Below, piece after piece: positions 20,142 to 63,818 of a DNA stretch of 64,000 bases. Numbering within the stretch: position 1 is the stretch's first letter; each line of letters begins with the position of its first letter. Made by a program: the position numbers and the translations under genes. This DNA comes from Antedon mediterranea (lineage: Eukaryota > Echinodermata > Crinoidea > Comatulida > Antedonidae): positions 6,391,001-6,455,000 of the forward strand of contig NC_092677.1 of assembly GCF_964355755.1 (NCBI RefSeq), given 5' to 3'. Below the pieces are notes generated by a model. It saw only the letters and a list, made by a program, of their open reading frames with translations. It was not told where the DNA came from and did not search any database.

Positions 20142-21728
20142 TACTTATTCAACAATTTGGTGCTTATTCGACAGTGGTGCTTATTCGACAAGTACGTGAT
20201 GCTTATTCGACAAGGGTTGTTCTTATTCCACAGATGTGCTTCTTATTCCACAGATGTGCTTGTTCGCAACAGTGTGCTTATTCGACAGTACGTGGTGCTT
20301 ATTCGACAAGGGTGGTTCTTATTCCACAGATGTGCTTGTTCGCAATAGTGTGCTTATTCGACAGTACGTGGTGCTTATTCGACAAGGGTGGTTCTTATTC
20401 CACAGATGTGCTTGTTCGCAATAGTGTGCTTATTCGACAGTACGTTGTGCCTATTCGACAAGGGTGGTTCTTATTCCACAGATGTGCTTGTTCGCAACAG
20501 TGTGCTTATTCGAAAGTTGTGGTGCTTATTCGACAGTACGTGGTGCTTATTTCAAAGATGTGCTTGTTCGCAACAGTGTGCTTATTCGACAGTAGGCCTA
20601 CGTGGTGCTTATTCGACAAGGGTGGTTCTTATTCCACAGATGTGCTTCTTATTCCACAGATGTGCTTGTTCGCAACAGTGTGCTTATTCGACAGTACGTG
20701 GTGCTTATTCGACAAGGGTGGTTTTTATTCCACAGATGTGCTTCTTATTCCACAGATGTGCTTGTTCGCAACAGTGTGCTTATTCGACAGTACGTGGTGC
20801 TTATTCGACAAGGGTGGTTCTTATTCCACAGATGTGCTTGTTCGCAACAGTGTGCTTATTCGACAGTACGTGGTGCTTATTCGACAAGGGTGGTTCTTAT
20901 TCCACAGATGTGCTTGTTCGCAACAGCGTGCTTATTCGACAGTATGGTGCTTATTCGACAAGGGTGGTTCTTATTCCACAGATGTGCTTGTTCACAACAG
21001 TGTGCTTATTCGACAGTACGTGGTGCTTATTCGACAAGGGTGGTTCTTATTCCACAGATGTGCTTGTTCGCAACAGTGTGCTTATTCGACAGTACGTGGT
21101 GCTTATTCGACAAGGGTGGTTCTTATTCCACCGATGTGCTTGTTCGCAACAGTGTGCTTATTCGACAGTATGGTGCTTATTCGACAAGGGTGGTTCTTAT
21201 TCCACCGATGTGCTTGTGCGCAACAGTGTGCTTATTTGACAGTATTGTTTATTCGACAGTATTGTTTATTCGACAGTACGTGGAGCTTATTCAACAATAC
21301 TTGGTTCTTATTCGACAGAGGTCTTGTTCGACAGTGTGCTTATTCGACAGTGATGCTTATTCGACAGTACGTGGAGCTTATTAAAACATACTTGGTTCTT
21401 ATTCGGCAGAAGTGCTTATTCGACAGTTGTGCTTATTTAATAACAGCTTATTCAATGACAGTACGTGGTGCTTATTCGACAATACTTGGTTCTTATTCGA
21501 GAGAGGTCTTGTTCGACACTGGTTATTCGACAGTGTTGCTTATTCGACAGTAAGTGGTGTTTATTCTACAATACATGGTGCTTATTCGACAGTTGCCTAC
21601 GTGGGGCCCCGTGGGGTTTATTCGACAGTATGTGGTGTTTCGACAGAGGACGTGCTTTTTCGAAAGTGTGCTTATTCGTCAGTAGGCTACGTGGTGCCTG
21701 TTCGACAATACGCGGTGCTATAATTCGA
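20142..21728. repeat. Minisatellite of 76-bp units built from 14-bp subrepeats
   Basis: The regular unit is 76 bp (for example TTCGC at 20263 and 20339) and contains GTGCTTATTCGACA, GGTTCTTATTCCACAG and GTGCTTGTTCGCAACAG. It is itself made of variants of GTGCTTATTCGACA. Units are near-identical at about 20260-21240 and become irregular at both ends, as expected for unequal exchange in the middle of an array. ORFs of up to 471 codons cross it in all three plus frames with the same repeated peptides, because the unit lacks stops. These are not genes. Confidence 0.95.
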
Positions 21729-24865: not shown

Positions 24866-25283
24866 GTAGGTTATATCTCAGTAGTAACGCATTTTAGTAG
24901 TATCGGGGATCGGGGATATAATAATACTCCCTGGTTTCAGTATAAAAATAATACAGTTTTTAAATAGACCTACGCGCTACACAATTGGATGCATGTGTAA
25001 TGCCTGGGGTTGCATTCTAAAGCAATGCTTTAGCGTAGAATTGTACATATGCATTTGGCCTACCAAATATATTTTGGTATTAACCGTTCCTTTGCATTAT
25101 GATTTTTTTTCCAAATAATATCTCAGAAAGATATATAGGCCTAAACACATTGAATATAATATCTGAATATAGTAGACACGCATGTTTGCTTGGTTATTAT
25201 TATGTTTTATTTGAACTTCCATGAATCTTTTTGGTACACATCAGCTTCTATTATCTGAGATAATTACCATGTTGCTATGAGTA

Positions 25284-25890
25284 GGGGTTATCCAATTCTG
25301 AAGAGCTATTTAATGTGTTACAGTACCCTCAAATTCAAATACATATTTTTCTGCGACCGTTTGAATAGGAGTAATTATTCCATTATGCAGTCCTCCTGCT
25401 GCATATCTAGAACAACGTTTAATTGAAGTGTATGTTTTAACCATTGTAACTTACAGGCCATTTTCATGTTGTTGAATGTGACAGACATCTTTATTTTATT
25501 AAGCGTTGATACCACCCAAAGATACTGATACATTTCTCTAATAAATTCCTTGTAGCCATCATTTATTCATGTAAAATCGAAAACATTTCGTAGTGTATTT
25601 TGATACATTTAACGGAATGGACATGGATGACTGCACCTTGTGATATGCCTTGCCTATCAATTGACTAGGCCTACACTTTATGTGTAAAACTAAAATGACC
25701 CTTCTGGGAAGCTACAATTTTGAGGAATTCCATTTGCACTTTGTTTGAAAAGTCTTTTTCTGTAGAGCCGCCGAAACTTCTAAGCAAACCATCAATGTCA
25801 CCATGAGCATCAGTGGGGTTTTTCCGTCTGCTGTGGACATGCTTTTCCGGAATTTTCATTTAACACAGCGGGCTTTATAAAGTAGATTCG
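25284..25890 (-). pseudogene. Pseudogene G: decayed ubiquitin-like/ART-like exon
   Basis: This is a badly eroded copy of exon 2 of the gene family at 27-42 kb. The ART-like end is visible at 25284-25430 (plus strand ATCCAATTCTGAAGAGCTATTT, CTGCGACCGTTTG, ATTATGCAGTCCTCCTGC, compared with copy E at 44,540-44,660). The middle lies at 25450-25660 (CTTACAGGCCATTTT, GCACCTTGTGATATGCCTTG). The ubiquitin-like part is at 25671-25859, where a minus-strand reading still gives IDGLLRSFGGSTEK and VASQK. Frameshifts, stops and deletions are frequent and no kinase exon remains upstream. The flank at 25,150-25,270 also matches 30,470-30,570, so a whole tandem unit decayed here. Confidence 0.8.
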
Positions 25891-27197: not shown

Positions 27198-29144
27198 TTA
27201 GTCATCATCTACCAAGCGAACAATGATACCATATGGCCTGACATCTGAAAACCCATTCTCTAAATAGCCTTTTGATGAAAGCCAATATTCAACCGATTCT
27301 TCTGAACCTTCTCCTGGAATCACTACCATGTTTCCATTTTTCTTATCTGGATTAACCCGATTCTGTAGAGCAATTTGGTAGGTATGTCCTTCGAAATAGA
27401 ATGTCTCAGCAAACTTATCGGCAACAATGTCAAGAGAAGGGGTGGTAAAAACGCCTTGTATGGGTTCGTTCGTCGCAATACTGCCATGTACAATGCAGTT
27501 ATTTCTCATCTTTGACCCATGGTAGCTTACAGGCCATTCATTTGGTGACGAATCTGTTCTACTTCTTTGCTCTCCCAACCAAATATCATCTTCGTACTGA
27601 CCTTTAACCTTAAGTGCATGTCTGTACCAACCACATGGTCTCTGATACGTGTGGTCACCTCTGAAATACTGTGTATTACCATCATTCAATTTTGTGAAAT
27701 TATAGTTATATCCTGGATCAAGAAGGGATTCATCCATTTCGTACAATACTTGACTTGAACCAACAGAGTGAGCGTGAACAACTGACCCATGTTTGATACC
27801 TTCTTGTCGAATCGGTGTCTCGTCCTCAATTCTACAGGCTCGGTGAAACAACTCTAGATAGTCACCGGGAAGGTGGGAATTTAAGGAAATTAGTTTCCGC
27901 AGATCGGATACAGTAGCGTCACTTGAAATTCCAAATACACCCGTAGAGCCACCTTGACTTTTAACGAATATATCGATAAGATTTTCGTCGACAACATCCG
28001 TTTCTCGTTTTTCATTAAAACTCATTGCTGGATTTGTGAAGTGAAAGAAATCATGGATTGTGATTTTCCTGACGTTAGGATGACCTGGTAATTTGGCAGC
28101 TTCTCCTGGAAGCAAAACTTCGACCCCTGTGCAAGCCTCAATTCCAGCTGCCACAAGTTCTACTGATGATAGGTTTGGTTGTTTTACCTGTGAATAGATG
28201 TTATATATTATAAAAGTTATAAATTACCAATTTGACCAATATTTACAATTTATTTTATACACTACACCACACAAGACAAATGAAATTAGAACACTTACCG
28301 GACCATCATGTTGCATGATTTGACGATAGACAACGCGTGCTTTTGGTCTTTCGTGGTAATCTTCTTTCAGCATGTTTGTAATTAGCTTTTCCATGAAGTC
28401 GTCGCCTAGATTACTTAAGGTCAAACTATGGTCACCTTTACTAACCATCATAGCTGTACATTGCGCTCCAATTTTTCGTTTCAATTCGTCACTTAACGTT
28501 GCACAAAAGAGTAAACCGAGACTGAAAATATCAGCCTGTAAGTTGTAGTGTCGTTGCATTACTTCTGGAGCCATATAGGCAAGAGTGCCACCTGCTGTAC
28601 CCATGTATATTTTATCAACGTTCACTTCACTGTCAGGTCCTACTACCAGTTTAGCTTGTCCAAAATCTGCTATCTTAGCAACACCGTCTCTACTAACTAG
28701 GATATTTGCTGGTTTTAGATCTCGATGTATGATTGGAATTCTATGAAGATACGCTAATCCGGCACACATATCTTTAATAAATTGCTTTCGTACCTCAGTC
28801 GTTGGCTTTATTTTTTCTAGGTAAACATCCAGGGATCCATGTTCACAGAATTCTAGAACTATGAATGTTATTTCAGAAACTTCGTGAAATTCAATCAATC
28901 TTACGATGTTCTTATGATTAGCCTTTTTCAATGTTTCTGCTTCTCTTGGATTGACTTTTTTCAATTTCTTAATGGCAACAATTTCTTTTGTTTGCTGGTG
29001 TTTTCCTTTATGTACAGTACCAAAATTACCTTCTCCAATTTTTTCGCCTAAATCGTACGGGAACCCCTGATGCTGTGTCACTGACTGTAGAGAAACAGTG
29101 GATTGTGAGCGACTCTGCGGACGACTCTGGTTGTTACCTCCCAT
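27198..29144 (-). CDS. Gene A: kinase–ubiquitin-like–ART-like fusion protein
   Basis: Two coding exons, 29144-28299 and 28187-27198, are joined by a 111-bp GT-AG intron (donor GTAAGT, acceptor TTCACAG), both in phase 0, giving 611 residues. Exon 1 is a complete protein kinase domain (about residues 30-280): glycine loop GEGNFGTV, lysine in VAIKK, HRDLKPAN, DFGQAK and an APE motif. All catalytic residues are present. The closest known group by motif (GHYxxxADIFxxG) is STK35/PDIK1L. Exon 2 gives a conserved linker, a ubiquitin-like domain (IDIFVKSQGGSTG to VVHAHSV, no terminal Gly-Gly), then a domain with RPCGWYRHALKVKGQY, WPVSYHGSK, TTPS-A-KFAE, YQIALQNRVNP and VRPYGIIVR, which suggests an ADP-ribosyltransferase fold. 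It begins MGGNNQS. It is the most divergent intact array member. Its biological role is unknown. Confidence 0.85.
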
Positions 29145-29539
29145 ATTTGAAAAGTATATAGGTACTGTCAGTACTGACCTTATTAAAAAAATGATAACAA
29201 TTATTCATGTTAACAAATTTCAAAGCATTCATTTGTAAGCTGCTATGATGTATGCTAAAATTGGCATAGCCTTCCCGTGATAAAATGTGAAGGGTTTTTC
29301 CTAGGCCTAAATGTATGTAATGTAATATGTAATAATGCCTTTCCTATAACAATGAAGGCAAACAACCAGCAACGCATAACAGAGCTATTAACTGTCAAGT
29401 GAAAATATCCGTTCCTGTTTTAATCTAGCCGTATACTTATATGATAGTATGTTTATATGTTTTTAAAAATTGTAACGGTTTAACACAGAATGTTTTACTA
29501 ATTTTAAATCAACTATTTAAGATACAATTAAATTACTGT

Positions 29540-29650
29540 ACATTATACTTACACATTTAAAAACGACGAGTTCCTGCTAAACTCCTCAAAGATGGCGGTA
29601 TGGGATTTCCAGTTTTCCTAAAATAACTATTATAGGCTTATGGGTTTTTT
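29540..29650 (-). promoter_or_regulatory. Predicted first exon/promoter of gene A
   Basis: On the minus strand a GTAAGT donor (plus-strand ACTTAC at 29549-29554) follows a short block with AGGAGTTTAGCAGGAACTC and a CCGCCATCTTTG motif (YY1-like, inverse of CAAAGATGGCGG). The same order of blocks occurs upstream of gene B (33940-34050) and at the orphan copy (24480-24600). Conservation across units suggests a non-coding first exon with its core promoter. The rest of 29145-30989 is AT-rich spacer. Confidence 0.5.
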
Positions 29651-30989
29651 TTTCCGGAAATGTTTGTTATGCTCCGGACGAATCGGAATTGTTGAATCGT
29701 TGTTGATTTACTGTATGCTTTATGTTTGTAGAAACGTCTATCATGCAGTGCGTAATGAATATATTGATTCTAAAGGCTAATACAAATGTGAAACCTACTT
29801 ATCGTAAAGATACTATATACTATTATTCGTGACCTCAACGTGTAAATGTATTCTGTACTATCGATGGGTCACGGTGTAATGTAAGGAAACAGTAGGCTCT
29901 AAAACGACTTGACATACACACACATAATTTTCCAAATCATAAGCGACATTTTTTTTTCAATTTTGCTTGTACCGTCACTTTCATTCATTCATTCAACATG
30001 ATTACTATACAGTCAGTAAATTGTGTTCGTTGTTGTAAATCTACAATCTTTATTTACCGATTGTTATACAATAATATAATCCTCCTTTTCGAATATTTCG
30101 TAACCTCATTATCCATATAATAGATAATGATATAAATATTTTTAATAACCATGTATTATAGAAAAAACACGATTTATTCATTCATAAAATAAGTCAATTA
30201 GTAATACTTGTCATTATAGCATCTCCGTGTATCTGTTTAAGTTTGTTTTATATAATATAAATTCTCTTTTTTCGTATATTTTTAACAGTTTTATCCATAG
30301 TAGGCCTATAATAAATATAAGATATTAAAAATGGGCCATATTTATAGAAAAAAGACCAAAGTACCAAAACCTGCAGTTTTGATGATCCGTAATTTGCGAT
30401 TGATTGCTTGATTGGAATTACTTGCGCGTAGGCCTACGTATTTGTGATTTTTTTGGATTGTATTTAATATGTGAACATAGGAGACAAACGTGTTTGATCT
30501 GTTATCTTATGTTTTATTCCAGGAATATTTATCTGTTGGTAAATGTCAGCTTTGTTATCTAATTTATTAAAAAAGATAAAATAATTGTAGTGACAATTGT
30601 TCTCGTCCTACTTCAATAGGTCTAGTAGGTATTCGGAAATTATTTCTTCTTTTTGAACTATTATACAAAATACAATCTAGACCAACAACAAGGCTGTGAA
30701 TTAGGTGTACAGTATATACAATTATTATAATTATAATACATAAAAAAAGAATTATTATTTAGCGCAAACATTTAGTTACCATGCTATTAATTCCAGTAGT
30801 AAATTCCAAATTTAATTAATTATTGTTTTCCTCTGGGAAATTATACAAATAAGAACACATAAAAAAGTATAAAAATATATAATGCAAAATGCATATAAAA
30901 ATGTTTACATCAAAGATAAAAATGTTGTGTAAACAATATTGATTTGTTATGAAACAGCATTTTTATTGCAATATTTTTAACTTTTTAAC
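29651..30989. other. Spacer between genes A and B
   Basis: No coding sequence. Parts match 24,600-25,280 and 34,050-34,340, so this is the repeating intergenic part of the tandem unit. Confidence 0.6.
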
Positions 30990-33194
30990 TTACAATTTAC
31001 GAATAAGAATACCGTATGGTCTAACATCATTAACATCTTTGGAAGTGTCTTCCTTGGGCGACAACCAGTAATCTGCTGTTCCTTCTCCTGGGATGATTTC
31101 CATGTGGCCAGAACTAGGATTTATCCGATTCTGAAGAGCTATTTGGTAAGTGTTACCTTCAAATTCAAATACTTCAGCATATTTTTCCGCGACCGTTTGG
31201 AGAGAAGGAGTAGTTATGATTCCCTCCTGCAGTTCTTCTACAGATCCAGCACAACTTCCAATGGGAGTGTTATCTCTGGTCATTTTGGAACCATGGTAAC
31301 TTACAGGCCATTCTCCTGTTGTTGAATGTGTTCTTATTCCGGGACCTCCAAGCCAAATGTCGTCACTGTATTGACCTTTGACTTTGAGTGCATGTCTAAA
31401 CCACCTACAAGGTCTCTGATACTGATGTCCTCCTCGAATAAACTCCTTGTCGCCATCATCCATTTCAGTAAAATCGAAGTTAAAAGACGGATCTAACAGA
31501 TCGTTATCCATTTCGTAGTGCACCGTCCCCTTATCATTTTCAACGGAATGGACGTGGATAACTGCACCTTGTGATATGCCTTGCTTATCAATTGAATGGT
31601 CATCATCTACTTCACACTTTTTGTAGTAAAGCTCAAATGACTCTTCGGGAATCCTCATTTGTGAAGCTACAAGTCAACGAATTTCAAGTGCATTTGCTTC
31701 TTTTGAAATCCTTGCCTTTCCAGTAGTGCCGCCGACACTTCTAAACAAAATATCGATGTCATTAACATCTGTGCTTTTGTTGGAGTTAGGGTTATTTTCA
31801 TTAACACAACAGGCTTTGTAAAGTGGAATAGGTCGTTTAATTGAATCTTTTGATGTGACGATGATCCTTCTCCGGGTGGTCTTATCTCAACACCAAGAAA
31901 AGCGGACATTCCAGCTGCTAGCAAATTCAATGATTTTATGTTCACTTCACCAGTCTGCAAATAATAAAACAAATAACTTGACAATTTCCATTTTATCATT
32001 TACAAGTTTATATTCAACTTACTCTAACTCTATACCTTACAAAAAACAATACATATACGTGACTGTATGTGATTCTCAAACCGTGCAAAATCATTTACAA
32101 TACAGCTTAATACTATTAGAGGAAGCCTGCACTAAATGCGATAATTGTGTGCAGAAGATTGGTTCAACTAGTAGAATATAATACGATAAGAAGACGTAAT
32201 GGTAATATAGCAGATGTTGACGATACAGCATCAATCTAATATTACTTTCCATTATTTTTTATTTATCATTTTGCATGGGTGTGAATCTCTACCAAACTTT
32301 GAAATAATAAAATCCACCAAACTTGTATATGTTTACCTTTTTATCAAGCTGCAATAACTATGTGCTAATCTCTTGAGCTTTTGGTCTCAAATGGTAATCT
32401 CGCTGAAGCATCTGTGTGATCAATCTATGCATAAACTTTTCAAATTTCACCGGTACTGTGTACGTGTATTCTGGAAACATATGCATCTTCAAACCAACCA
32501 TTTCCTTCTCAATACTTCCCTTTAATTCATCATCTAATATACAACAGAAAACAATACCCATGCTGAAAATATCTGCCTGAGCATTGTAATGTCTTTTGGT
32601 GACCTCTGGAGCTGCGTATGCATATGTCCCAGCCATCGAACGCATATACATTTCTTCGAGTTTTTTGCCATTGCTTGTTTTTGACAAAATCTTTGCTAAT
32701 CCAAAGTCAGCTAGCTTCGCAACACACCGAATGTCAACCAAAATATTTGCTGGTTTAACATCCCTGTGTGATATCTTGAGCCCGTGTAGATGCGCTATGC
32801 CTGAAGCTATGTCCTGAATGAAACCCATTCGTACCTTGAGGTTAGGTTTTTTAGATTTTATGAAACTTGTTATGTGTCCAAAATCACAGTACTCCATCAC
32901 TATATAAATGGTGTTTCCAATTTGGAAGCTTTCCATATACTGTACAACATTTTTATGAGTTGCAATTTTTAGTGATTCAATTTCAGCTAACATATGTGGA
33001 TCTTGATCTTGGTTAGGCCTTTGTAATTGTTTAATGGCAACTGTTTTATTTGTTTGTTGGTGCTTTCCTTTATATACAATACCAAATTGACCTTCTCCAA
33101 TTTTTTCGCAGAAATCGTACGACAAACACTGATTTTCTGTTACTGGCTGTAGAGAAACAGTGGACTGTGAACGACTCTGGTTGTTACCTCCCAT
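30990..33194 (-). pseudogene. Pseudogene B: kinase–ubiquitin-like–ART-like copy with three lesions
   Basis: The layout matches gene A and its relatives. The kinase exon is 33194-32337 and the second exon 31954-30990, with a 382-bp intron. The kinase motifs are all present (GEGQFGIV, VAIKQL, HRDVKPAN, DFGLAK, APE). Three changes break it: an in-frame TAG near 32358 where C and D have a lysine codon (AAG), 21 bases before the donor; a one-base deletion near 31807 that shifts the frame after FHFTKPVVL; and a TGA near 31676 where C and D have an arginine codon of RRLVASQM. After the frameshift the frame is otherwise clean to the natural stop, so the decay is recent. A truncated kinase of 278 residues could still be made. 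Confidence 0.85.
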
Positions 33195-33939
33195 GTTTTA
33201 ACGATTAGATATTCAATGCATACCTATAATATATAATTTTTATAAATTGTTATGATTTTGTTAGTATATTTCACACATATTAAACAGTATTATAGGCCTA
33301 CGTTTTAAAATACCACCATTTTTGTAAAGTTAGAATTGAATTTGACCCTACTTTAAAGATAGAAATGTTGGCCACCACAAAGTAAATGTTTCACAAAGTA
33401 AATGTTTAAATTGTGTAACCTTTTTTTCGTTGAAAGCATGGCTGTTCTATTTAATTCTTCTTCGCCTGCCTGAATAGAACTTTAGGTTTTCAATGAATCT
33501 CACTTTTCAACGTATACAACACAATAATATTTTTTTTTTAAATTACATACTGTTCTAAAATATACTGTGTTCAATTAGTCGGTCGCTTCCATCTTGAATC
33601 AATTGTAGAGGGCTCGGATGTTCGCCGAAGAGCAGATCAGACAAAAAGCTTGTTTCACGTGTATTCGAAACAACTTCACAGTTCAAATTAATCAGATACT
33701 CATCGCCACGTGATACAAAAACAACCAACCATTGGCAAAAATATACACTTGTGTGTTATTGTATTCAGATATTATATGCTACTGAGTCTGAGCTTCAACT
33801 TTGTGGTAGGCCTATGTAAACCTATATATGTTGTCGTCTGACAGTTGCTAAAGAGGCGCAATTATCATTAAAGAAGTGTGTACACTAGTTTAAATACTTT
33901 GGTGTACAAACAAAAATTCCAATAAGGTTACAATAATCC

Positions 33940-34050
33940 AATACTTACCTGTAATAAAACCAAGAGTATGCTTCTTATTAAATGCATAGAACCGGTACAA
34001 GATGGCGCTGTTGGTATTTCCAGTTATTCTTAAAATAGATATACAGTCCT
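33940..34050 (-). promoter_or_regulatory. Predicted first exon/promoter of copy B
   Basis: This carries the donor (plus-strand ACTTACC at 33943-33949), then AAGATGGCG at about 34000 and GGTATTTCCAGTTATTCTTA, in the same order as upstream of gene A. The similarity continues weakly to 34340 (CGACGAATCGAAATTG and TGTGTGCTTTATG). Confidence 0.5.
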
Positions 34051-34556
34051 AATTTTTTTTCTATTAATACATTTTATTTTCAATAAAACCATCCAACTTA
34101 ACATCTAATATACTATTAACAATGTTTGTTTTTTCATCTGATTAGAACAATAATTTGTATTCATTTCGTAACATATTATCATTATTTTTTGTTTGTATCT
34201 ATATAATTCTACAAGTCCTATGCATTCTGCGACGAATCGAAATTGTGGAATTTTTATTGGTACTGTGTGCTTTATGGTGGTATTTAATGGTTTCAATAAA
34301 TGTGTTGTGTAAATAGACAGTGCGTTACTCTTGACCAAACTATGGATGTTTTGTAATGTCGTCGTATTACCATGAAAAAAATGTCATAGTTATACAAATC
34401 ACATCTTTTGGAATTTAAAAACATTATTCATTATTCGTTTTCTTCCAATATGTTCAGATGGATCTCAACAAACAATGCCTAACCCTCGACCGCTGTATAA
34501 TTGAATTTCAATTTGTGTTATAAATGAATGTGTCTCGCGACATTGCTCTGGAATGT

Positions 34557-34693
34557 AAGCTTGGTTCCCACTACAACACGAGTGATTTGGCCAATGACAA
34601 GCGATGGATTATTTGATCTTTCGCTTATCATTGGTCAACCCGATTTTGTTGCGTCTACATCCTTGCGTTGTGTCTCTAGTGGGAACCAAGCTT
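34557..34693. mobile_element. MITE of the CTTGGTTCCCA family, complete
   Basis: AAGCTTGGTTCCCACT at 34557-34572 is a perfect inverse of AGTGGGAACCAAGCTT at 34678-34693. The interior has an inverted pair, GGCCAATGACAAGCGATGGA and TCGCTTATCATTGGTCAACC. The element is 137 bp long with no coding capacity. TA dinucleotides flank it. Confidence 0.85.
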
Positions 34694-36196
34694 TATTAAT
34701 ATGATTTGATCGGCATAGATTACATTAAAGCATGGTGAAACGGAAGTATTATGTCGACCAATAGTACAAGTACAAAACAAGATAATAAGCTAAATTCTTT
34801 CTACCTTTATTTACAACATCTGTGACTTCTTGTTACAATAGCATTAATGCATACCGGACTCTAACCCTTACTCGTAATGAACGACGAGTACAAATCTTCC
34901 CATCTATTTATGCCCGTTTATGTATTCCTTTACTTTATAAATTACTCATGCATAACGGAGTGTAACTAGCGCCTTCACATACGTTACAGTGCGCTGTTCT
35001 CCGAATATTTTGGTTTGAAATAATGATAACTTGCCACTATAGGCCTAATGTTGCTACTGACATGATACATGATGAAAATAGTGTTAGTTATAAAAGAATT
35101 GCAATTAACATTGACACATCAGTCTAATAGAAGAAAATGCAGCAACAATAGATGATTTGGTCAGAGGCAACAGTGATTTAGATCGATGTTTGTACTCCCA
35201 TTTGTTGAAATGTCAAATCTCTGTTTCAATATTTCATATTTTGTGATAACAATCTGTGTAATGTAATTTCCAGAAACCTGGAGTTGATGGGCTTAGTCAT
35301 TTATAGAATATTAATATGCAATGTGTGAATGATTTGTGTATTATAGGCTTATGTACGTATATAAACCTAATAATTTATCAACGTTATAGTAGAGTAATGC
35401 AAACACACAGTTCAAGGTACAAATTACAATAAAATCAGTTTTGCAAAGACAAATGAAAAAGTTCAGTTCAAAAGCCAAATGTATTTTGTTGGTACACAAT
35501 AAACAGTGTTCTTGGACGTCGTCACGTACAGTAAAAGTTCAATGTGCTATCAATATGCTAACTGGTATATGGTTGAGACGTGTCAATACCAAAGTGTAAA
35601 TAAAATCGTATATGTAGCATGTTATGGTGGAGTGTACGAATTCCTTTTCATTATTTACCATGGTGTAAAAATGTATAGGCTTTATGTATGAATTAGTTAT
35701 ATGATAGAAATGAATTTACATTACATTGATTCAGTGAAAGGAAAAGAACACTGTGCAGCAAAACGCAACAAAATAAATATAATGGAACAAATCAGGTGAA
35801 ATAGGGCATGTTAAAATTCAAACACCAGAATGTACATAACAATTATGGTCGTTACAACTTCCGTGTTGGGAAAGACTATATTATTTTCTGCGCATAATAA
35901 CCACATAAAGTGTCATCATCAGAGAATGTAGAAACATTTCTAGTGATAAGAGAAGAATCCCGAATTATAATCTGTTAAACCATATTATAGGGGCCTACAA
36001 TAATACTTAGTGGCTGGTCACGTTATAGTCTACCCTTTACAATTCTGAAGTACTGTAGGCCTAAAGTGAATTTTAGCTTCAACAAATAAACAAAACAAGT
36101 GTTGTTTTTAATGAGGTACTCGATAATTTTAGCCCTCCGAATTTCACCCAATATTTACACGCCGCGAGTACCCCACGTTTTATCACGATATGTGTG
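34694..36196. other. Spacer 3' of gene C
   Basis: No gene or element recognised apart from the 3' flank of gene C. Confidence 0.5.
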
Positions 36197-38170
36197 TTAA
36201 TCATCAGTTACGCTAATCCTACGAATAAGAATACCGTATGGTCTAACATCATTCACTTTCTTGGAAGGGTCTTCCTTAGGCGATAACCAGTAGTCTGCCG
36301 GTCCATCTCCTGAGATAATCACCATGTGGCCAGAACTAGGATTTATCCGATTCTGAAGAGCGATTTGATACGTTTTACCATCAAATTCAAATACTTCAGC
36401 ATATTTTTCTGCCACCGTTTGGAGAGAAGGAGTAGTTATGATTCCATTCTGCAGTCCAGCTTGTGCAGACCCAATTGGAGTGTTATCTTTGGTTATTTTT
36501 GAACCATGGTAACTCACAGGCCATTCTCCAGCTGTTGAATGTGTTCTTGTCCCTAGATCCCCAAGCCAGACATCGTCACTGTATTGACCTTTCACTTTGA
36601 GTGCATGTCTAAACCACCCACATGGTCGTTGATACTCATGCCCTCCTCTAATAAATTTCTTGTCGTCATCTATTCCTGTAAAATCGTAGTTAAAAGACGG
36701 ATCTAACAGATCGTTATCCATTTCGTAGTGTGCCGTCCCCTTATCCTTTTTAACAGAATGGACGTGGATAACTGCACCTTGTGATATGCCTTGCTTGTCA
36801 ATTGAATGGTCATCATCTACTTCCCACCTCCTATGGTAAAGCTCAATTGATTCTTCAGGAATCCCCATCTGTGAAGCCACAAGTCGACGCATTTCATTTG
36901 CACTTGCTTTTTTTGAAATCTTCGCCTTCCCAGTAGTGCCGCCGACACTTCTGAACAAAATATCGATGTCACTGACATCATGGACGATCATGGTTTTGTC
37001 AACTGTTTTGCTTTTACTTGATTGAGGGTTATTTTCATTTAGCAACACCGGCTTGGTAAAGTGAAAAAGGTCGTTTAGTTTAATCTTTTGTTGTGAAGAC
37101 GATGATGCTTCTCCTGGAGGGCGTACCTCAACACCAAGACAAGCAGACATCCCAGCGGCAAGCAATTTTAATGACTTTAAATTAGCATCTTTTGGCTGCA
37201 AAAATATAAAATGAAATTCTTTTTTACTTTAAATAAATTTCCATTACACTACAAAAACTAATCATAAGTGGAGGGAGGAAATTACCTTAAAACTAACTTA
37301 CAACTTGTCAACCAAATGTACTGGTGTTTTTTTAGGGGAAATTACCTTTTGACCGTGCTGCATTAACTTTTTGCTAATCTCTTGAGCTTTTGGTCTCAAA
37401 TGGTAGTCCTTCTGAAGCATTTGTGTGATCAATCTCTGCATAAAGGCTCCAACTTTTGCCGGAACCGTATATGTATATCCTTCAGCCACGTGCATCTTCA
37501 AACCAACCAATTCTTTCTCAATACTTTCCTTTACTTCCTCATCTAGTATACAACAGAAAACAATACCCATGCTGAAAATATCTGCCTGGGCATTGTAATG
37601 TCCTTTGGGAACTTCTGGTGCCATGTATACATAAGTCCCAGCCATCGTCTCCATATACATTTCTTCGAGACTTTTCATACCCTCAGTTTTCGATAAAATC
37701 TTTGCTAATCCAAAGTCGGCAATTTTTGCAACTCGTCGGTTGTCAACCAAAATGTTGGCTGGTTTCAAATCCCTGTGTGAGATTTTGAGCCCGTGTAGAT
37801 GCGCAATGCCAGAAGCTATGTCTTGAATGAAACCCATCCGCACCTTGATGTTAGGTTTTTTTGATAGTATATAATCTTCTATGTCCCCGAACTCACAGTA
37901 TTCCATCACTACATAAATGGTGTTTTCATCCGCGAAGCTTTCCATATATTGTACAACATTTCTATGGGCGGCAATTTTCAGTGATTCAATCTCAGCTAGA
38001 ACATCTGGAACATGTAATCTCAGCTCTTTGAATCTTTTTAAGGCAATTGTTTTAGAGGATTTAACCGCCTTGTATACATCCGCAAAAGAACCAGTGCCGA
38101 GACGTCCTACGATCTCGTAGCCATTGACGATTTGGTTCTTGGCTAGGGGTCTGCTTTCGAGGTTTCCCAT
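36197..38170 (-). CDS. Gene C: kinase–ubiquitin-like–ART-like fusion protein
   Basis: Exons 38170-37346 and 37195-36197 are joined by a 150-bp GT-AG intron, phase 0, giving 607 residues. The kinase half has GTGSFADV, the lysine in IALKRF, an alpha-C glutamate in AEIESL, HRDLKPAN, DFGLAK and YMAPEV, so it should be active. The second half has the linker AAGMSACLGVEVRPPGE, a ubiquitin-like domain (IDILFRSVGGTTGKAKIS to GAVIHVHSV) and the ART-like end (RPCGWFRHALKVKGQY, WPVSYHGSK, ITTPSLQTVAEKYAE, YQIALQNRINP, VRPYGILIR). The protein starts MGNLES, which fits the N-myristoylation consensus (Gly2, Ser6), so membrane attachment is plausible. A predicted 5' UTR intron runs 38532-38186 (donor CAC/GTAAGT, acceptor TTTTGTACAG), conserved in gene D. 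Confidence 0.87.
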
Positions 38171-38532
38171 TGTTCAATCACGTCACTGTACAAAAAGTAA
38201 AAAGTAATATTAAAAATACTCCTACAGTTTAATTATTATATGCATACCGTTACAGTCGATTATTAGTATCTATTTCCGAAGTATCATAGAAATATTTGGT
38301 AATACCACATCACACATGTGTCTAGTACAGTAGTAATTCATAATCATTGGTGTGTTTTGGGGAACCAATGACATGAACTTCCGGTATGAACTGGTTTCAG
38401 ATGTAAGAGTGATTTTCGTGATGTTGCGATATCGAATATGATGTATACAATTCTTCACCAATTCTTTATCATAGCAATTATTGCTTTTAACCTCATACAT
38501 ATTATATTAAATCCGATAATATCAATACTTAC

Positions 38533-40100
38533 GTGCGTTTCTATTCCTTATTTATTTCCTTGTTTATTGCGTAGTACTGTAATTAGTGTTCACTTACTCA
38601 ATCTGGGTAGGCCTATTTATGGAATTTCCAAATAGTATGAAAATAGATGAGGGCGGTGCACAATATCTTTTGAAAACCATATTGTGTTGACATTTCAATA
38701 TTAATATAGGCCTATTATTTTCGGCGTTACGTCATCACTTACATCAATAGAATCCATATAATGAAACATCGTAATTTGCTGACTAAGCCGTTTAACATAC
38801 TAATGCAGTAACAAAAGCCTGGCCTATCGGTTTCTCTGTATTTGAAAGAAAAAATTTCTCTGTTTTAAGTATAAACCAGTACGTTGTTTAATATTATGAA
38901 GCCATTTTATTAATAAACTCATATTTTCATTTTATCATTAAGACCATCAATTTAGAAACAAGTTATTCAATCATACACTTGTGATTCTTTTTATACTGAT
39001 CTATCTCTCTCCCTCCACCTCTGCATTTTATATTTTAATTAAGTTTACAGTTTTATATTTTGTAAAAGCAATTGGCGTTTACGCTGTTGGGGACGGAATA
39101 ATAAAATATTCAAATTGAATAAACATTAAAAACATACAGTTTTACAGAAAAACACAGTTTTGTAAAGACAGAATATAGAATAAGCTTTGTCTATAAAGTT
39201 ATATCACACCATATGTTTTGCAACGCCATTTCACTTCATACCACAGAACAATTGTATTTCATCAACATTGTAATGCGACCTTTTGCTTCTCGGTTGCTAA
39301 TATTTCGCTACTTATTGTAATTTCATTTCTGTTTGAATACACAAAATCTTCTAGATTTAGACATTTGTAAAAGTCGTCTTTTGTTGCATTTGTTAGGCTT
39401 ACCAATTAGTATTGTGAATTAAATATTTTTTTAAACAATTCTTCTTTTATTTTTGTATTTTCAGTTCGCATGATATTTTTTGTTTACACGGTTACGTTGC
39501 GTGCAAACTAAACAAAAACAATTAGTTTACATTGTCAACTTATCTGTTCCTTATTCGAAATGAATTAAATGGATATTATGACAACTCACTGATTTTACAT
39601 ATCGGCCTTAAGACCTGATATGCCTATACTAATCTGTTAAAATGTTTGCTCGTACGTTATGTTAACATTAAACTTCAAATCATTCAAGGAATCTATAGTT
39701 CTCTGATAACAATCATATCATTATCATATAGTGCAAAGTACTGTAGGCTACAGCTATACAATTTACGGTCATAAATTTCATTATCTACAGTTTATTTGAC
39801 TATTTAAACAGAAATTAATGTAGTCATGCAGTAGACACACGAGTATAGTCCTGTCTTCTATATGTACATCTTGTATACTACCTCTAACAGTAGGCCTACA
39901 TTCGGTATCCTCTATCCACGGTTGCTGTCATCCTACATATTTTCTTTTATTTTTATCAAACAAATACCAAAACATTGGTATTTTCTCCTTAACCACGCGT
40001 GTTAGCTTATGAGAGTTATTTTTGCGTGAATATAAAATTTAACCGCTTCAGGCGTTGTTCCAAACAAATGTAGTTTCTTAATAATATACCAATTCTGAAC
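38533..40100. other. Duplicated spacer between genes C and D
   Basis: Most of 38171-40100 matches 42017-44391 (for example ATAGGCCTATTATTTTCGGC at 38705 and 42742, and TAAGCTTTGTCTAT). It holds the upstream region of gene C and the 3' flank of gene D. With the genes it makes a tandem unit of about 4 kb. No additional coding sequence is supported. Confidence 0.7.
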
Positions 40101-42016
40101 CTAATTGTTGATCTTACGAATAAGAATGCCGTATGGTCTAACATCATATACATTGGTAGGGTGGGAAATGTCTTCCTTAGGTGATAACCAGTAATCTGCT
40201 GCTTCATTCCCTGATATATTGAGCATGTGACCGGGGTCAGGATTTATCCGATTCTGAAGAGCTATTTGATAAGTGTTTCCTTCAAATTCAAATTCTTCAG
40301 CATATTTTTCCGCGACCGTTTGGAGAGAAGGAGTAGTTATGATTCCATCCTGCAGTCCTTCTACCGATCCAGCACAGCTTTGAATTGGGATGTTATCTCT
40401 GGTTATCTTCGATCCGTGGTAACTTACAGGCCATTCTCCAGCTGTTGAATTCGTTCTTATTCCGGGACCTCCAAGCCAAATGTCGTCACTGTATTGGCCT
40501 TTTACTTTGAGTGCATGTCTAAACCACCCACATGGTCTGTGATACCGATGCTCTCCACGAATAAACTTATTGTCGCCATCATCCGTTTCAGTAAAATCGA
40601 AGTTAAAAGACGGATCTAACAGATCGTTATCCATTTCGTAGTGCACCGTCCCCTTATCATTTTTAACGGAATGGACGTGGATAACTGCACCTTGTGATAT
40701 GCCTTGCTTATCAATTGAATGGTCATCATCTACTCTCCAACTTCTGTGGTAAAGCTCAAGCGAATCAACAGGAAGCCTCATCTGTGAAGCTACAAGTCGA
40801 CGCATTTCAAGCAAACTTGCTTTTTTGGAAATCTTCGCCTTCCCAGTAGAGCCGCCGACACTTCTGAACAAAATATCGATGTTACTAACATCATGGACGA
40901 TTGATTGAGGGTTATTTTCATTTAGCACCACTGGCTTGGTAAAGTGAAAAAGGTCGTTTAGTTTAATCTTTTGTTGTGAAGACGATGATGTTTCTCCGGG
41001 AGGGCGTACCTCAACACCAAGACAAGCAGAAATCCCAGCGGCAAGCAATTTTAATGACTTTAAATTAGCATCTTTAGGCTGCAAAAAATATAAAAAGAAA
41101 TTCCTTTTTATTTTAAACAAATTTCCATTACACTACAAAAACTAACTTACTCATAAATTAATTGTACTGGTGTTTTGAGAGGGGAAATTACCTTTTGACC
41201 GTGCTGCATTAACTTTTTGCTAATTTCTTCAGCTTTTGGTCTCAAATGGTAGTCCTCCTGAAGCATTTGTGTGATCAATCTCTGCATAAAGGCTCCAATT
41301 TTTGCCGGCACCGTATATGTATATCCTTCAGCCACGTGCATCTTCAAACCAACCAATTCTTTCTCAATACTTTCCTTTACTTCCTCATCTAGTATACAAC
41401 AGAAAACAATACCCATGCTGAAAATATCTGCCTGGGCATTGTAATGTCCTTTCGGAACTTCTGGTGCCATGTATACATAAGTCCCAGCCATCGTCTCCAT
41501 ATACATTTCTTCGAGACTTTTCATACCCTCAGTTTTCGATAAAATCTTTGCTAATCCAAAGTCGGCAATTTTTGCAACTCGTCGGTTGTCAACCAAAATG
41601 TTGGCTGGTTTCAAATCCCTGTGTGAGATTTTGAGCCCGTGTAGATGCGCAATGCCAGAAGCTATGTCTTGAATGAAACCCATCCGCACCTTGATGTTAG
41701 GTTTTTTTGATAGTATATAATCTTCTATGTCCCCGAACTCACAGTATTCCATCACTACATAAATGGTGTTTTCATCCGCGAAGCTTTCCATATACTGTAC
41801 AACATTCTTATGAGCGGCAATTTTCAGTGTTTCTATCTCAGCTAAAACATCTGGAACATGTAATTTCAATTCTTTAAATCGTTTCAAGGCAACTGTTTTA
41901 GAGGATTTAACCGCCTTGTATACATCCGCAAAAGAACCGGTGCCGAGAAGCTCTACTATCTTGTAGCCGTTGACGATTTGGTTCTTGGCTAGTGGTCTGC
42001 TTTCGAGATTTTCCAT
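40101..42016 (-). CDS. Gene D: kinase–ubiquitin-like–ART-like fusion protein
   Basis: Exons 42016-41192 and 41078-40101 are joined by a 113-bp GT-AG intron, phase 0, giving 600 residues. It is a close duplicate of gene C, with all kinase motifs, a ubiquitin-like domain and the ART-like end (RPCGWFRHALKVKGQY, WPVSYHGSK, TTPSLQTVAEKYAEEF, YQIALQNRINP). About 480 bp of the kinase exon differ from C at a single position, while the first 220 bp and exon 2 differ much more. The start is MENLES, so the Gly2 needed for myristoylation in C has become Glu. The linker lacks seven residues present in C. A 5' UTR intron is predicted at 42514-42027 with the same donor and acceptor as in C. Confidence 0.87.
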
Positions 42017-44391: not shown

Positions 44392-44811
44392 CTAACTGTT
44401 GTTGTCGATCTTACGAATAAGAATGCCGTATGGTCTAACATCATGCACATTGGTAGGGTGGGAAGGGTCTTCCTTGGGTGATAACCAGTAATCTGCTGCT
44501 TCATCCTCTGATATATTCAGCATGTGACCGGGGTCAGGATTTATCCGATTCTGAAGAGCTATTTGGTAAGTGTTACCTTCAAATTCAAATTTGTCTGCAT
44601 ATTTTAACGCGACCGTTTGGATCGAAGGAGTAGTTATGATTCCATTATGCAGTCCTCCTGCAGATCCAGCACAACTTCCAATGGGAATGTTATCTCTGGT
44701 CATCTTCGATCCGTGGTAACTTACAGGCCATTCTCCAGCTGTTGAATGCGTTCTTGCTTCGGGTTCCCCAAGCCAGACATCGTCACTGTATTGGCCTTTG
44801 ACTTTAAGTTC
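44392..44811 (-). pseudogene. Fragment E: 3' end of an ART-like exon, cut by a breakpoint
   Basis: The minus-strand reading contains WPVSYHGSK-region DNA, then a clean frame with GIITTPSIQTVALKYADKF, YQIALQNRINP, DYWLSPKED and VRPYGILIRKI, to a natural stop at 44392-44394. Homology to gene D stops abruptly at about 44811, in the middle of the codons for ALKVKGQY. The kinase, the ubiquitin-like domain and the first part of the ART-like domain are missing. Its 3' flank matches that of gene D. Without a promoter or start it cannot make the family protein. Confidence 0.85.
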
Positions 44812-44879: not shown

Positions 44880-46270
44880 ATAGAGAAGTTTACATTTATA
44901 CAGTGATGGAGTACTGTGATTTGGGGGACATAAACGCTTTCATAAAATCCAGAAAAACCTAACCTCGACGTGCGGATGTGTTTAATTCAAGACATAGCTT
45001 CAGGCATAGCACATCTTCACAGACTCAAGATCTCACACAGGGATTTGAAACCAGGTAATATTTTGGTTGACAACCGACGAGTTACGAAACTTGCCGACTT
45101 TGGATTAGCAAAGATTTTGACAAACAATGAAGGTCACAAACTCCACGAAATGTTTATGGAGTCACTTCCTGAGACGTACGAATACATGGCACCAGAGGTC
45201 CCCAAAGGACATTACAATGCTCAGGCAGATATTTTCAGCATGGGTATTGTTTTTTGTTGTATATTAGATGATGAATTGAAGGGAAGTATTGTGAAAGAAG
45301 TGGTTGGTTTGAAGATGCATATGGTTCCATAATACACGTACACAGTACCTTTATGCAAAGGTTGATCACAAAAATGCTTCAGCGAGATTACCATTTGAGA
45401 CCAAAAGCTCGAGAGATTAAAAGAAAGTTAATGCAGTACGGCCAAGCGGTAAATGAACAGTTTTATTATCTCATATGGGGCCCCAATTTAGCAAGATTTT
45501 AGTAGGATCTACTTTGCTACGATTGACAGTACACTTGAAACAAATATTGCAGTTTTTCGCGTCAACAAAACAGTTTGTACTTTTAGTGCGTATGAACCTA
45601 TATTGGGACACGAGAATCTCTAACTAAAAATTATAATTTAATTTATATTTCTCTGTTTACACGATTCAAACCTTTAAAATACAACGGTTGTAAAAAATGT
45701 TTACAGGGCATTCTTTTATTATTATTTGCAGCCTGGAGTAGTCAACTTGAAGTCACTAAAACTGCTTGCAGCTGGAATGTCCGCTAGTCTTGGTGTTAAG
45801 GTAAACCCGCCTGGAGAAGGATCATCGTCACAACAAAAGATTCAATTAAACGACTTTTTCCACTTTAGAAAGACCTCTGTGCTCAACAAAAACAAAAACG
45901 TTGACGAAATCGATGTTTTGTTTAGAAGTCTCGGCGGCTCTACTGGAAAGGTAAGCATTTCAAAGGAAGCAAGTGCAGCTGACATTCGTCGACTTGTAGC
46001 TCCACAGATTGGTCTTCCTGTTGATTCGCTTGAGCTTTACCACAGAAGTTGCAGAGTAGGTGATGACCAGTCAATCGATAAGCAAAGCATATCACAATCA
46101 TCCACGTTCATTCCGTTAAACAAGATGGTGGAAGTGGGAGGGTGCAATACCAACTGGATGAAGATTTTTTGATCCGTCTTTTACCTACGATTTTACAGAA
46201 ATAAATGACGGAGCCATGGCATTCAGTAGAGGAGCACATCGGTATCAAAGACCTTGTGGGTGGTTTAGAC
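44880..46270 (+). pseudogene. Pseudogene F: inverted, broken kinase–ubiquitin-like–ART-like copy
   Basis: This is the only array member on the plus strand. Kinase homology starts at about 44884 (VMEYCDLGDI), so the N-lobe with the glycine loop and lysine is missing. HRDLKPGN and DFGLAK are still readable. One base is lost in the A run near 44952, a TAA replaces a glutamate codon at about 45331, and about 15 bp are missing after GTACCT near 45350. The family intron is recognisable (donor at 45449, acceptor TATTTGCAG ending at 45731). Exon 2 is open through the ubiquitin-like domain (IDVLFRSLGGSTGKVSIS), loses about 8 bp near 46096, and stops being homologous at 46270 inside RPCGWFR. It is clearly non-functional. 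Confidence 0.88.
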
Positions 46271-51556: not shown

Positions 51557-51760
51557 CATTATTGACCTTTGACCTTGATTTATCATATCTCAGCAACCAC
51601 TAATCGGAGATATACAAATTAGGGCTTAAATTGTTCAGAAACTACACATTTATATCCAGTCTAATGGCATGTTTTTGCAAAAAAATGGCGGATTCTAACA
51701 TTATTTACCTTTGACCTTGATTTATCATATCTTAGCAACCACTAATCTGAGAGACACACA
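51557..51760. repeat. Two direct copies of a 55-bp segment
   Basis: TTCTAACATTATTGACCTTTG...CAACCACTAATC at 51549-51606 recurs at 51692-51748 with a few changes. It lies between the long inverted repeat and the truncated gypsy element. No retrotransposon 5' LTR is visible here. Confidence 0.75.
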
Positions 51761-51762
51761 AT

Positions 51763-52548
51763 ATGAAATTAATGGAAAAGGCGGGTGTGGCTGCGTTGAG
51801 TTTTAATGAAGCAGTAGAAGTTGCTTTAGCGAGAGAAAGTGCTAAGGATGAATCCAAGTATCTGAGAGAGTCTGCTATAAATATAGAGGTTCATAAAATT
51901 GATACATACTCTAGTGGTGGTAAACAGGGAAGTGGTGAGCGTAGGAATATGTATAAAAGTAATAACGATAAACATAAAAAGCGGAATAAAGAACTCAAGA
52001 TGTGTAACCGGTGTGGAAGAAAATCACATGATCAACAAAATTGTTGGTTTAAAGACAAGAAGTGTAACGTGTGTCAAAAAGTTGGACATATCAGTCGCAT
52101 GTGCTACAAAAGGTCACAAGGTGTACGTACGGTAGAGATGGATGATAGCGATAGTGATATTGAAACTGCATTACCTTTGCCTATTTTTACAACAACTAAA
52201 TCATCAGATGCTATTTGTGTTAATATGAATGTGGATGACCGAAACTTTCAGTTTGAATTGGACACTGGTTCTGCAGTAACTTTGATATCTGAACAGACTT
52301 ATAAAGAACATTTTAAGTATAAACGTTTGCAAGGGAGTTCTCGGACATTTACTAGTTTTACGGGGGAGATTGTAAAACCCCTTGGTAAAATCAGTGTTAA
52401 AGTGGTATATGAGTCACAATGTCATTATTTATTCATGTATGTTGTTGCTAATACTAAGCATTCTCTTTTAGGGCGAGACTGGTTAAATGTTATCAAGTTA
52501 AATTGGCAAGAATGTTTTCATAATAATAATTATGTAATTGGAATGTAG
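51763..52548 (+). CDS. Ty3/gypsy Gag C-terminus and protease, 5'-truncated
   Basis: This 261-residue frame has two CX2CX4HX4C zinc knuckles (CNRCGRKSHDQQNC and CNVCQKVGHISRMC, about residues 80-115), which bind the element's RNA, followed by an aspartic protease (ELDTGSAVTLI near residue 165 and LLGRDWL near 240). An in-frame TGA lies 15 bases before the ATG, and there is no capsid region, so the 5' part of gag and the 5' LTR are lost. The frame ends in TAG at 52546-52548, overlapping the start of the pol frame. The element is a Mag/SURL-like member of Ty3/gypsy by layout. Confidence 0.93.
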   Translation: MKLMEKAGVAALSFNEAVEVALARESAKDESKYLRESAINIEVHKIDTYSSGGKQGSGERRNMYKSNNDKHKKRNKELKMCNRCGRKSHDQQNCWFKDKKCNVCQKVGHISRMCYKRSQGVRTVEMDDSDSDIETALPLPIFTTTKSSDAICVNMNVDDRNFQFELDTGSAVTLISEQTYKEHFKYKRLQGSSRTFTSFTGEIVKPLGKISVKVVYESQCHYLFMYVVANTKHSLLGRDWLNVIKLNWQECFHNNNYVIGM

Positions 52549-62600: not shown

Positions 62601-63818
62601 AAACAAAATCACTGACACCAGGAGTTCTTGGGGTTTGGCCTGATGCTGGTAAGTACAATTACTTTACTCTAGATACCGTTATTTGTTTAGATATTTGCAT
62701 GGCATTTTTTTTTTCTTGCAAAGAACTGTGTACTGTACTTTCACTGAGAAAAATATACTGTACCAACCAACTCTACAGTAGTCTATTTAAATTTTTATTT
62801 TTCATGTTTTGTTGGACAATACAGTCTTCTTCCTTTTCTTTAACAGCCATATCTTTAATTCCTCTAATCCCTAAAAATTATTGTTTCTGTCAAGGATATT
62901 GCAATGCTAACAGTACTGTAGTAGTCTAAATCCCATCATTGGGTTACCAATTTTTAACTCAGTTCTTTGCAGATTCTTGATATTTTTATTATTGCATTTT
63001 GTTTTTTTTTATAGTGAATGCATTTTGTAGATTTGCTGTGTGTAAACATAATGATTCTTACATTTGTCAATAATTGCATTCAATATGGGTATTGCTTAAC
63101 CCTGCAAACCTAAAAAACATGTTTCAATCACTTTTATAGGGGTTTGCTACGTTTTTTTTTAAGTTTGCATTGTTTAGCAATAGCCATTCAGTACAGTTAA
63201 GTGTCACCATACAGAAATAAGTTACTTGTATTTCTCAATGGTGTAAATAACTGTACATTGTGTTTGATTACTGATAATTGCATCTGTACCTGTAATTAGT
63301 GAAAGTCTGTAAAATGATGAGTGCATCTTTTTTCGTAGAGTTTGATAGAATAGAACAAATGCAGCCAATAAATAGTACTTTAAATTGATAAAACATAAAA
63401 AAAAATCTTTCCTGAACTTTGAAAATAATAAATAAAACAATTAATGGCCACTAAAATTGTAATTACAACCGCATTACCTCTGTGATGTACAATACTGAAT
63501 TTCTTTACTGATCAGATACTGTACACAGTAGTTTTTCTCTCTGCAGTGCTTACTGTACTGTATGCATCATCCCTGTCTAAATTTTTTACTGAACAGATAT
63601 ATTTTTTCTTCAGTTAGAATTATCACAGATTTACTTGCACATTTGAAATTCCACTTTACTCTAATAACACCCATATAAAATATTGTAAACACATTAATGA
63701 AATAATATTAAAATGATTAAGCTTAATTGTTTCCCATTAATTAGTCTCCCGGCAGATGGCTGAGGCAATAGAAGCTGACAGGTCTCCCGAAAGAATCGCC
63801 AAGAACCAAGCGCTGAAG
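59659..63818 (+). CDS. KMT2A/KMT2B (MLL, trithorax-type) histone H3K4 methyltransferase, first three coding exons
   Basis: Exons 59659-59826, 60446-62648 and 63745-63818 join in frame (introns GT-AG, 619 and 1096 bp) to give 815 residues, running off the window before the CXXC, PHD and SET domains. Residues 1-16 (MARLRFPGRPGQRFGR) match the MLL menin-binding motif. Residues 57-68 (EEEFEGFLDEEV) match the LEDGF-binding FxGF motif and start exactly at the exon 2 boundary. Further MLL-like blocks are DQTIAKQLLKKAKSG (about 270) and VSARSSRKIKPSKRFLD (about 381). The rest is lysine-rich and disordered, with a basic run near 650-690. The known family methylates H3K4 at promoters and enhancers in a complex with WDR5, RBBP5 and ASH2L. 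The exon 2 frame stays open into intron 2 up to 62929, but GTAAGT at 62649 is the proper end. A single ancestor of KMT2A and KMT2B is expected in invertebrates. Confidence 0.9.
63085..63184. mobile_element. Miniature relative of the long inverted-repeat element, in KMT2 intron 2
   Basis: ATTGCTTAACCCTGCAAACC, ACATG...TCAATCACTTTTAT and GGGGTTTGCTACG, ending GTTTAGCAATAGC, match the central part of the element at 50203-51536 in the same order. The ends form a short inverted repeat. Confidence 0.65.

Follow-up and report, generated by a model that had tools for sequence, protein, structure and literature searches.

A predicted fusion of protein kinase, ubiquitin-like, and NEURL4-type domains in a tandem gene array

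Introduction

NEURL4 has been listed among the ADP-ribosyltransferase (ART)-like proteins, with an H-L-E triad and the motifs HGS, LLS, and ELE (PMC7955679), and its C-terminus has been described as PARP-like by structure comparison, with a Foldseek E value of about 1e-2 (PMC10450202). Human NEURL4 is also reported to mediate (mitochondrial) ADP-ribosylation, according to the statements in PMC10450202 and PMC10789625 that cite this work. ART-like domains of the NEURL4 type have no Pfam family, and little is known of their biology. PARP/ARTD catalytic domains (PF00644) and ubiquitin-like (Ubl) domains (PF00240) are other described systems with which the genes reported here can be compared.

Here we describe a gene family found in a 64,000-nucleotide stretch of DNA (the window) on contig 8 (C8:6391001-6455000) of its source genome, which comprises 354 Mb in 18 contigs. 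Its members are predicted to join three signaling parts in an unusual manner: a protein kinase, a Ubl domain, and a NEURL4-type ART-like domain. Phosphorylation, ubiquitin-type docking, and ADP-ribose biology may be linked in this way in one polypeptide, with the activities being predicted from sequence. A literature search found no kinase-Ubl-ART or kinase-Ubl-NEURL4-type fusion. The window genes have in common with the ART-like domain of NEURL4 the order of its motifs and a profile match, but they lack the Neuralized repeats and the CxxC segment of NEURL4, and their ART-like domain is instead joined to a Ubl domain and a kinase. With PARP/ARTD catalytic domains they share a His-Gly pair and, by eye, a GxYFA/...YAE-like order, whereas the Tyr residue of the catalytic triad is replaced by Ile or Phe.

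Results and Discussion

Organization of the tandem array

The family forms a tandem array on the minus strand. As judged from their open reading frames (ORFs), genes A, C, and D are intact two-exon genes, copies B and E are broken, and one further copy is a remnant. In gene A (29144..27198), a kinase ORF precedes a second ORF that carries YHGS-type motifs. Its exon 1 (28299..29144) encodes a Ser/Thr protein kinase of 282 aa with complete catalytic motifs (Pfam Pkinase, 7.8e-52). A phase 0 intron of 111 bp (28188..28298; CCG/gtaagt...ttcacag/GTA) precedes exon 2 (27198..28187), which encodes a conserved N segment, a Ubl domain (PF00240, 1.1e-6), and the NEURL4-type ART-like domain (~27201-27740) and ends at a stop codon.

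Genes C (38170..36197) and D (42016..40101) have the same layout. Exon 1 of gene C (37346..38170) encodes a protein kinase of 275 aa with complete catalytic motifs, and the kinase encoded by exon 1 of gene D (41192..42016), also of 275 aa, is 96% identical to it; both assignments come from ORFs, Pfam, and motifs. The introns, again phase 0, measure 150 bp in C (37196..37345; AAG/gtaatt...tttgcag/CCA) and 113 bp in D (41079..41191; AAG/gtaatt...tttgcag/CCT). In gene C, the N segment (LKSLKLLAAG...LFHFTKP) and the Ubl domain, identified by ORF, Pfam, and predicted fold, occupy 36750..37195, and the NEURL4-type ART-like domain (36197..36739) carries YHGS, GIITTPS, EKYAE, DYW, and VRPYGILI ahead of the stop codon. 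Exon 2 of gene D (40101..41078; ORF and Pfam) encodes the N segment, the Ubl domain, and the NEURL4-type ART-like domain, followed by a stop codon. The general architecture of exon 2 is a conserved segment of ~60 aa, then the Ubl domain, and then a C-terminal domain of ~180 aa.

The remaining copies are damaged. In gene B (30990..33194, minus strand), a TAG stop interrupts the kinase exon close to its end, and a frameshift near 31670-31820 disrupts exon 2. Copy E is broken by an inversion of ~1.4 kb: the second half of its ART-like domain (44407..44808, minus strand) keeps the orientation of the array, whereas the inverted part (44885..46270, plus strand) holds a frameshifted kinase, a splice acceptor, the N segment, the Ubl domain, and the first half of the ART-like domain, which ends at RPCGWFR. 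Finally, at 25256..25800 on the minus strand lies a decayed exon 2, in which fragments of the Ubl and ART-like domains remain in disrupted frames.

A first-pass annotation of the window had described, in A, C, and D, a kinase exon that splices in phase 0 to an exon with a Ubl domain and a YHGS motif. The ORFs and GT-AG junctions bear this out, with some variation in the motifs (FTTPS, KFAE, and NRVNP in A; ITTPS, KYAE, and NRINP in C and D). A, B, C, and D share the position of their GT-AG junctions, which are canonical and in phase 0, and we infer from these sites that the kinase exon and the Ubl-ART exon are spliced together as one two-exon gene. Reading past the donor yields short kinase tails (ending in ...VISPKKTPVHLVDKL and a stop in C, and in ...VISPLKTPVQLIYE and a stop in D), as would be expected if the exons were separate neighbors, or if the intron were often retained and a kinase-only protein were the main product. 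We consider this arrangement highly improbable, given the matching junctions, the need for an upstream start in D, where no Met precedes the Ubl domain in exon 2, the indels between the introns of C and D that would break a reading frame, and the pairing of the kinase with exon 2 in five copies. The read-through tails of C (37196-37345) and D (41079-41191) are similar to each other, and intron retention could possibly produce a kinase-only isoform.

The kinase exon and its relatives

Exon 1 of A, C, and D encodes a Ser/Thr kinase that looks to be active. The window kinase exons match PF00069 with Pfam E values of 2e-50 to 7e-54 (2e-50 to 8e-52 in A, C, and D), and the G-loop, AxK, HRD, DFG, APE, and RPKA elements are all present in these three genes. 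Among kinases of solved structure, MELK, ULK3, and NEK2 are the nearest in sequence; the window kinases may resemble the STK35/PDIK1L (NKF4) kinases. Two kinase-only relatives are encoded elsewhere in the genome, L077 (contig 7, 22.79 Mb) and L078 (contig 4), which are 46% and 37% identical, respectively. These are single-exon kinases, as is exon 1 of the window genes, but neither a Ubl nor an ART-like sequence lies within 1.5 kb of them, a distance that for L077 corresponds to the 1.5-kb flanks covered by the search. Kinase C starts with MGNLES (38170) and kinase D with MENLES (42016 region), and L077 and L078 both share the MGxxxS start of kinase C. This start may be an N-myristoylation signal that was lost in D.

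The Ubl domain

The identity of the Ubl domain in exon 2 is firm. PF00240 matches are above the Pfam cut-off in A (1.1e-6) and in a contig-7 paralog (1e-7) and are below the threshold in C and D. Fold comparison used residues 73-152 of gene C exon 2, which form the sole fairly confident part of the model. This predicted domain matched ubiquitin/ISG15 with a Z score of 14.2 and an rmsd of 1.5 Å over 79 residues, and the matches to ubiquitin and to the C-terminal half of ISG15 had Z scores of about 14 and rmsd values that were mostly 1.1-2 Å.

The window Ubl has the beta-grasp in common with other ubiquitin-like domains (PF00240), among which the C-terminal half of ISG15 provides one of the closest folds. 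It differs from them in being internal, and sequence identity is 10-18% among the matches listed. The window Ubl lacks the terminal Gly-Gly and continues with VIHVHSV... into the domain that follows. Because the domain is internal and lacks a Gly-Gly end, it would not be conjugatable, and it probably serves as a docking module rather than as a modifier.

Homology of the C-terminal domain to NEURL4

The C-terminal domain has no match among the families of Pfam, NCBIfam, and PHROG. However, a profile of the family scored 21.4 bits against the C-terminus of the NEURL4 encoded in the same genome, compared with 13.1 bits for the best of 5,000 shuffles, and hhalign gave a score of 43.8 for the family versus NEURL4, compared with a null maximum of 24. 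The motifs RPxGW, YH, [LIFY][ST][ST]xS, QxRxxP, and PYxxLI are collinear in the two. The C-terminus of NEURL4, which spans four exons in locus L036, reads ...EYARPLGWCKFALR...CHVAYHTT...ILLSPSMKYC...YSQVAFQVRVQP...VPYALLIKI, and opposite to this the window family reads ...EYQRPCGWFRHALKV...WPVSYHGS...IITTPSLQTVAEKYAE...YQIALQNRINP...VRPYGILIR. At the level of sequence, these comparisons show that the C-terminal domain is homologous to the C-terminus of NEURL4.

The genome's NEURL4 was located on contig 3 by a genome-wide search and has several Neuralized repeats, and its presence marks the genome as that of an animal. PF07177 (Neuralized) had no match in the window exons, nor at the array in the genome-wide search. 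The window family keeps HG where the genome's NEURL4 reads HT. At L036:1178-2951, the latter has YHTT versus YHG in the family and EIQ versus ELE in human NEURL4, which gives it a more degenerate-looking ART-like domain than the window family has.

The C-terminal domain had initially been proposed to be PARP-like. Its link to the ART fold stands by way of NEURL4 (21.4 versus 13.1 bits), whereas the direct link to PARPs is not significant: PF00644 gave no Pfam match to the domain at E values up to 10, and a direct comparison with PARP profiles was no better than column-shuffled controls. A PDB search with the domain profile returned chance-level matches only. Structure prediction with AF2 for exon 2 of gene C (7 sequences) produced a Ubl domain that matched ubiquitin, as described above, and a C-terminal domain that was too low in confidence to search (pLDDT 44); the same was true for the isolated domain of a contig-7 paralog (14 sequences; pLDDT 36). 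The ART assignment is thus indirect, since the AF2 models are of low confidence and the direct PARP comparison is non-significant, and an ART fold is suggested by homology to NEURL4. These same observations, together with the missing Pfam ART match, would fit a different account in which the C-terminal domain and the NEURL4 tail share some non-ART fold and the likeness in HG arose by chance. We regard this as quite unlikely, because the NEURL4 C-terminus is ART-like according to the structure comparison in PMC10450202 and the listing in PMC7955679, and because the order of the motifs fits an ART core.

Catalytic positions of the ART-like domain

All window copies keep the His-Gly pair, as does each contig-7 paralog that covers the site. 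The second catalytic position was set by using the published LLS motif of NEURL4 as an anchor, and this placement is based on alignment rather than on structure. At this position, B, C, D, and E have Ile, A has Phe, and Tyr occurs in the two contig-7 paralogs that read intact at this site. The Tyr that marks the second position of the H-Y-E ART clade is absent in all window copies. The surrounding region reads ITT, FTT, or YSS across the copies, compared with the published LLS motif of NEURL4.

An acidic residue, D or E, precedes Y/C-W ([DE]YW) in 9/9 copies. It may be the third catalytic residue, and its register relative to EIQW/ELE of NEURL4 is uncertain by one residue. The earlier statement that no third catalytic Glu is visible must therefore be qualified by this conserved [DE] position, with the same uncertainty of register. 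The Tyr of the YA motif had also been taken as the triad Tyr, which is probably incorrect: the KYAE Tyr aligns by eye with the YAE of PARPs, which read NDYAE there in this genome, and not with YFA, and the triad site is occupied by I or F. The KYAE Tyr presumably falls in the region of the nicotinamide-stacking Tyr of PARP1. Overall, one canonical position looks altered in the window copies, and the two contig-7 copies look to have kept H, Y, and an acid.

How the fusion may have arisen

Kinase-free Ubl-ART genes are present on contig 7 at 21.36-21.46 Mb, and no related kinase was found within 7-8.5 kb upstream of them. The NEURL4-type domain consequently travels either with a Ubl alone (contig 7) or with a Ubl and a kinase (contig 8). 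Right before the coding exon, the contig-7 genes have acceptor-like sites, which are pyrimidine rich and end in AG (...TTTTTTAG and ...TTATTATAG), within about two codons of the acceptor position on contig 8. In one of these genes, paralog b, a run of G shifts the frame inside the ART-like domain (L014:8992-9032), and this copy is either a pseudogene or the product of an assembly error.

The existence of kinase-only and Ubl-ART-only relatives elsewhere in the genome points to an exon-level fusion. In the simplest account, a one-exon kinase gene would have become the upstream neighbor of a Ubl-ART gene and would have been spliced into the pre-existing acceptor at the start of the Ubl-ART coding exon, after which the fused copies would have multiplied and recombined. 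Searches of viral contigs, bacterial and archaeal genomes, phages, and plasmids found no relatives (the sole match in the phage search had 21% identity and an E value of 0.1), and nothing in these sets thus points to a viral or bacterial origin.

Selection and turnover

The comparison of C with D shows purifying selection on each exon, with dN/dS values of 0.14 for exon 1 and 0.31 for exon 2 and a significant surplus of synonymous changes (Fisher p values of 2.5e-7 and 1.9e-9); dN/dS for the ART-like domain is 0.26. Identity between C and D is about 82-94% over ~1.2 kb upstream, 93-100% in the kinase, and 84% in the C-terminal domain, and dS, which is 0.07-0.12 at the 5' side, reaches 0.50 in the C-terminal domain. 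For B and C, identity is ~40% upstream, ~82% over the greater part of the kinase, and 86-90% across the Ubl/C-terminal region. Such mosaic copies are consistent with unequal crossing-over or gene conversion within a tandem array. Turnover of the array, as had been proposed, is evident from the broken copies B and E, the remnant, and the mosaic copies.

An immune role has been considered on the grounds of this tandem turnover and by analogy, and the case for it is circumstantial. The same genome carries a cluster of at least 6 copies of a PARP12/14-type catalytic domain (C3:32372689-32742929; L051-L054, L057, and L058). PARP12 is their closest solved relative, one copy has internal stops or introns, and the cluster looks like a lineage expansion. 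As a pointer to an immune role of the window family, it is suggestive and does not amount to evidence.

Possible function of the fusion proteins

The window genes had been proposed to encode one protein that joins phosphorylation, a Ubl module, and possible ADP-ribosyl transfer or NAD binding. The kinase, the Ubl, and the third domain are indeed found in one gene, whereas ADP-ribosyl transfer or NAD binding is connected to the ART fold through NEURL4 only. In the best overall reading, to which we give an even chance, the kinase would be the effector and the internal Ubl would dock on a partner from the ubiquitin pathway. Having lost the canonical second catalytic residue, the ART-like domain would bind NAD/ADP-ribose or a protein ligand, and the Ubl-ART-like module would place or gate the kinase by binding rather than by transfer. 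For the ART-like domain taken alone, a binding-only step falls slightly short of an even chance. The ligand, the role, and any immune link of the family are deductions of this kind.

Loss of the Tyr is no proof of inactivity, because human NEURL4, which lacks Tyr at the second position, is said to be ADP-ribosylating in the reports that cite the original finding. The window proteins might accordingly be imagined as bifunctional enzymes, with kinase and ADP-ribosyltransferase activities and an H-[I/F]-[D/E] triad whose acid is the [DE] of [DE]YW. Conservation of His-Gly and of the acid, purifying selection on the ART-like domain, and the activity ascribed in those reports to NEURL4 with H-L-E would all agree with this arrangement. 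It conflicts with the Ile or Phe at the second position, with an acid that is off by one relative to ELE of NEURL4 in an ungapped reading around the Trp, and with the indirect assignment of the ART fold, for which the AF2 models are of low confidence; dual catalysis by the window proteins is possible but unlikely. A more elaborate proposal, in which an active kinase and a NEURL4-type mono-ADP-ribosyltransferase are connected via the Ubl to write two modifications in a fast-evolving defense family of one animal lineage, is distinctly improbable. The second catalytic position differs between the contig-7 and contig-8 groups, which makes them a natural pair for testing transfer versus binding.

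Other features of the window

A large tandem array at 20144-21591 is built on CTTATTCGACA in units of about 76, 150, and 226 bp and contains long, meaningless ORFs. An ORF of 827 aa at 60446-62929 (plus strand) is rich in lysine, has no Pfam match, and probably represents a single exon of a gene for a large nuclear protein. At 51751-55333 (plus strand) lies a retrotransposon-like pair of ORFs in which Pfam identifies a zinc knuckle and an aspartyl protease, followed, by eye, by reverse transcriptase, RNase H, and integrase.
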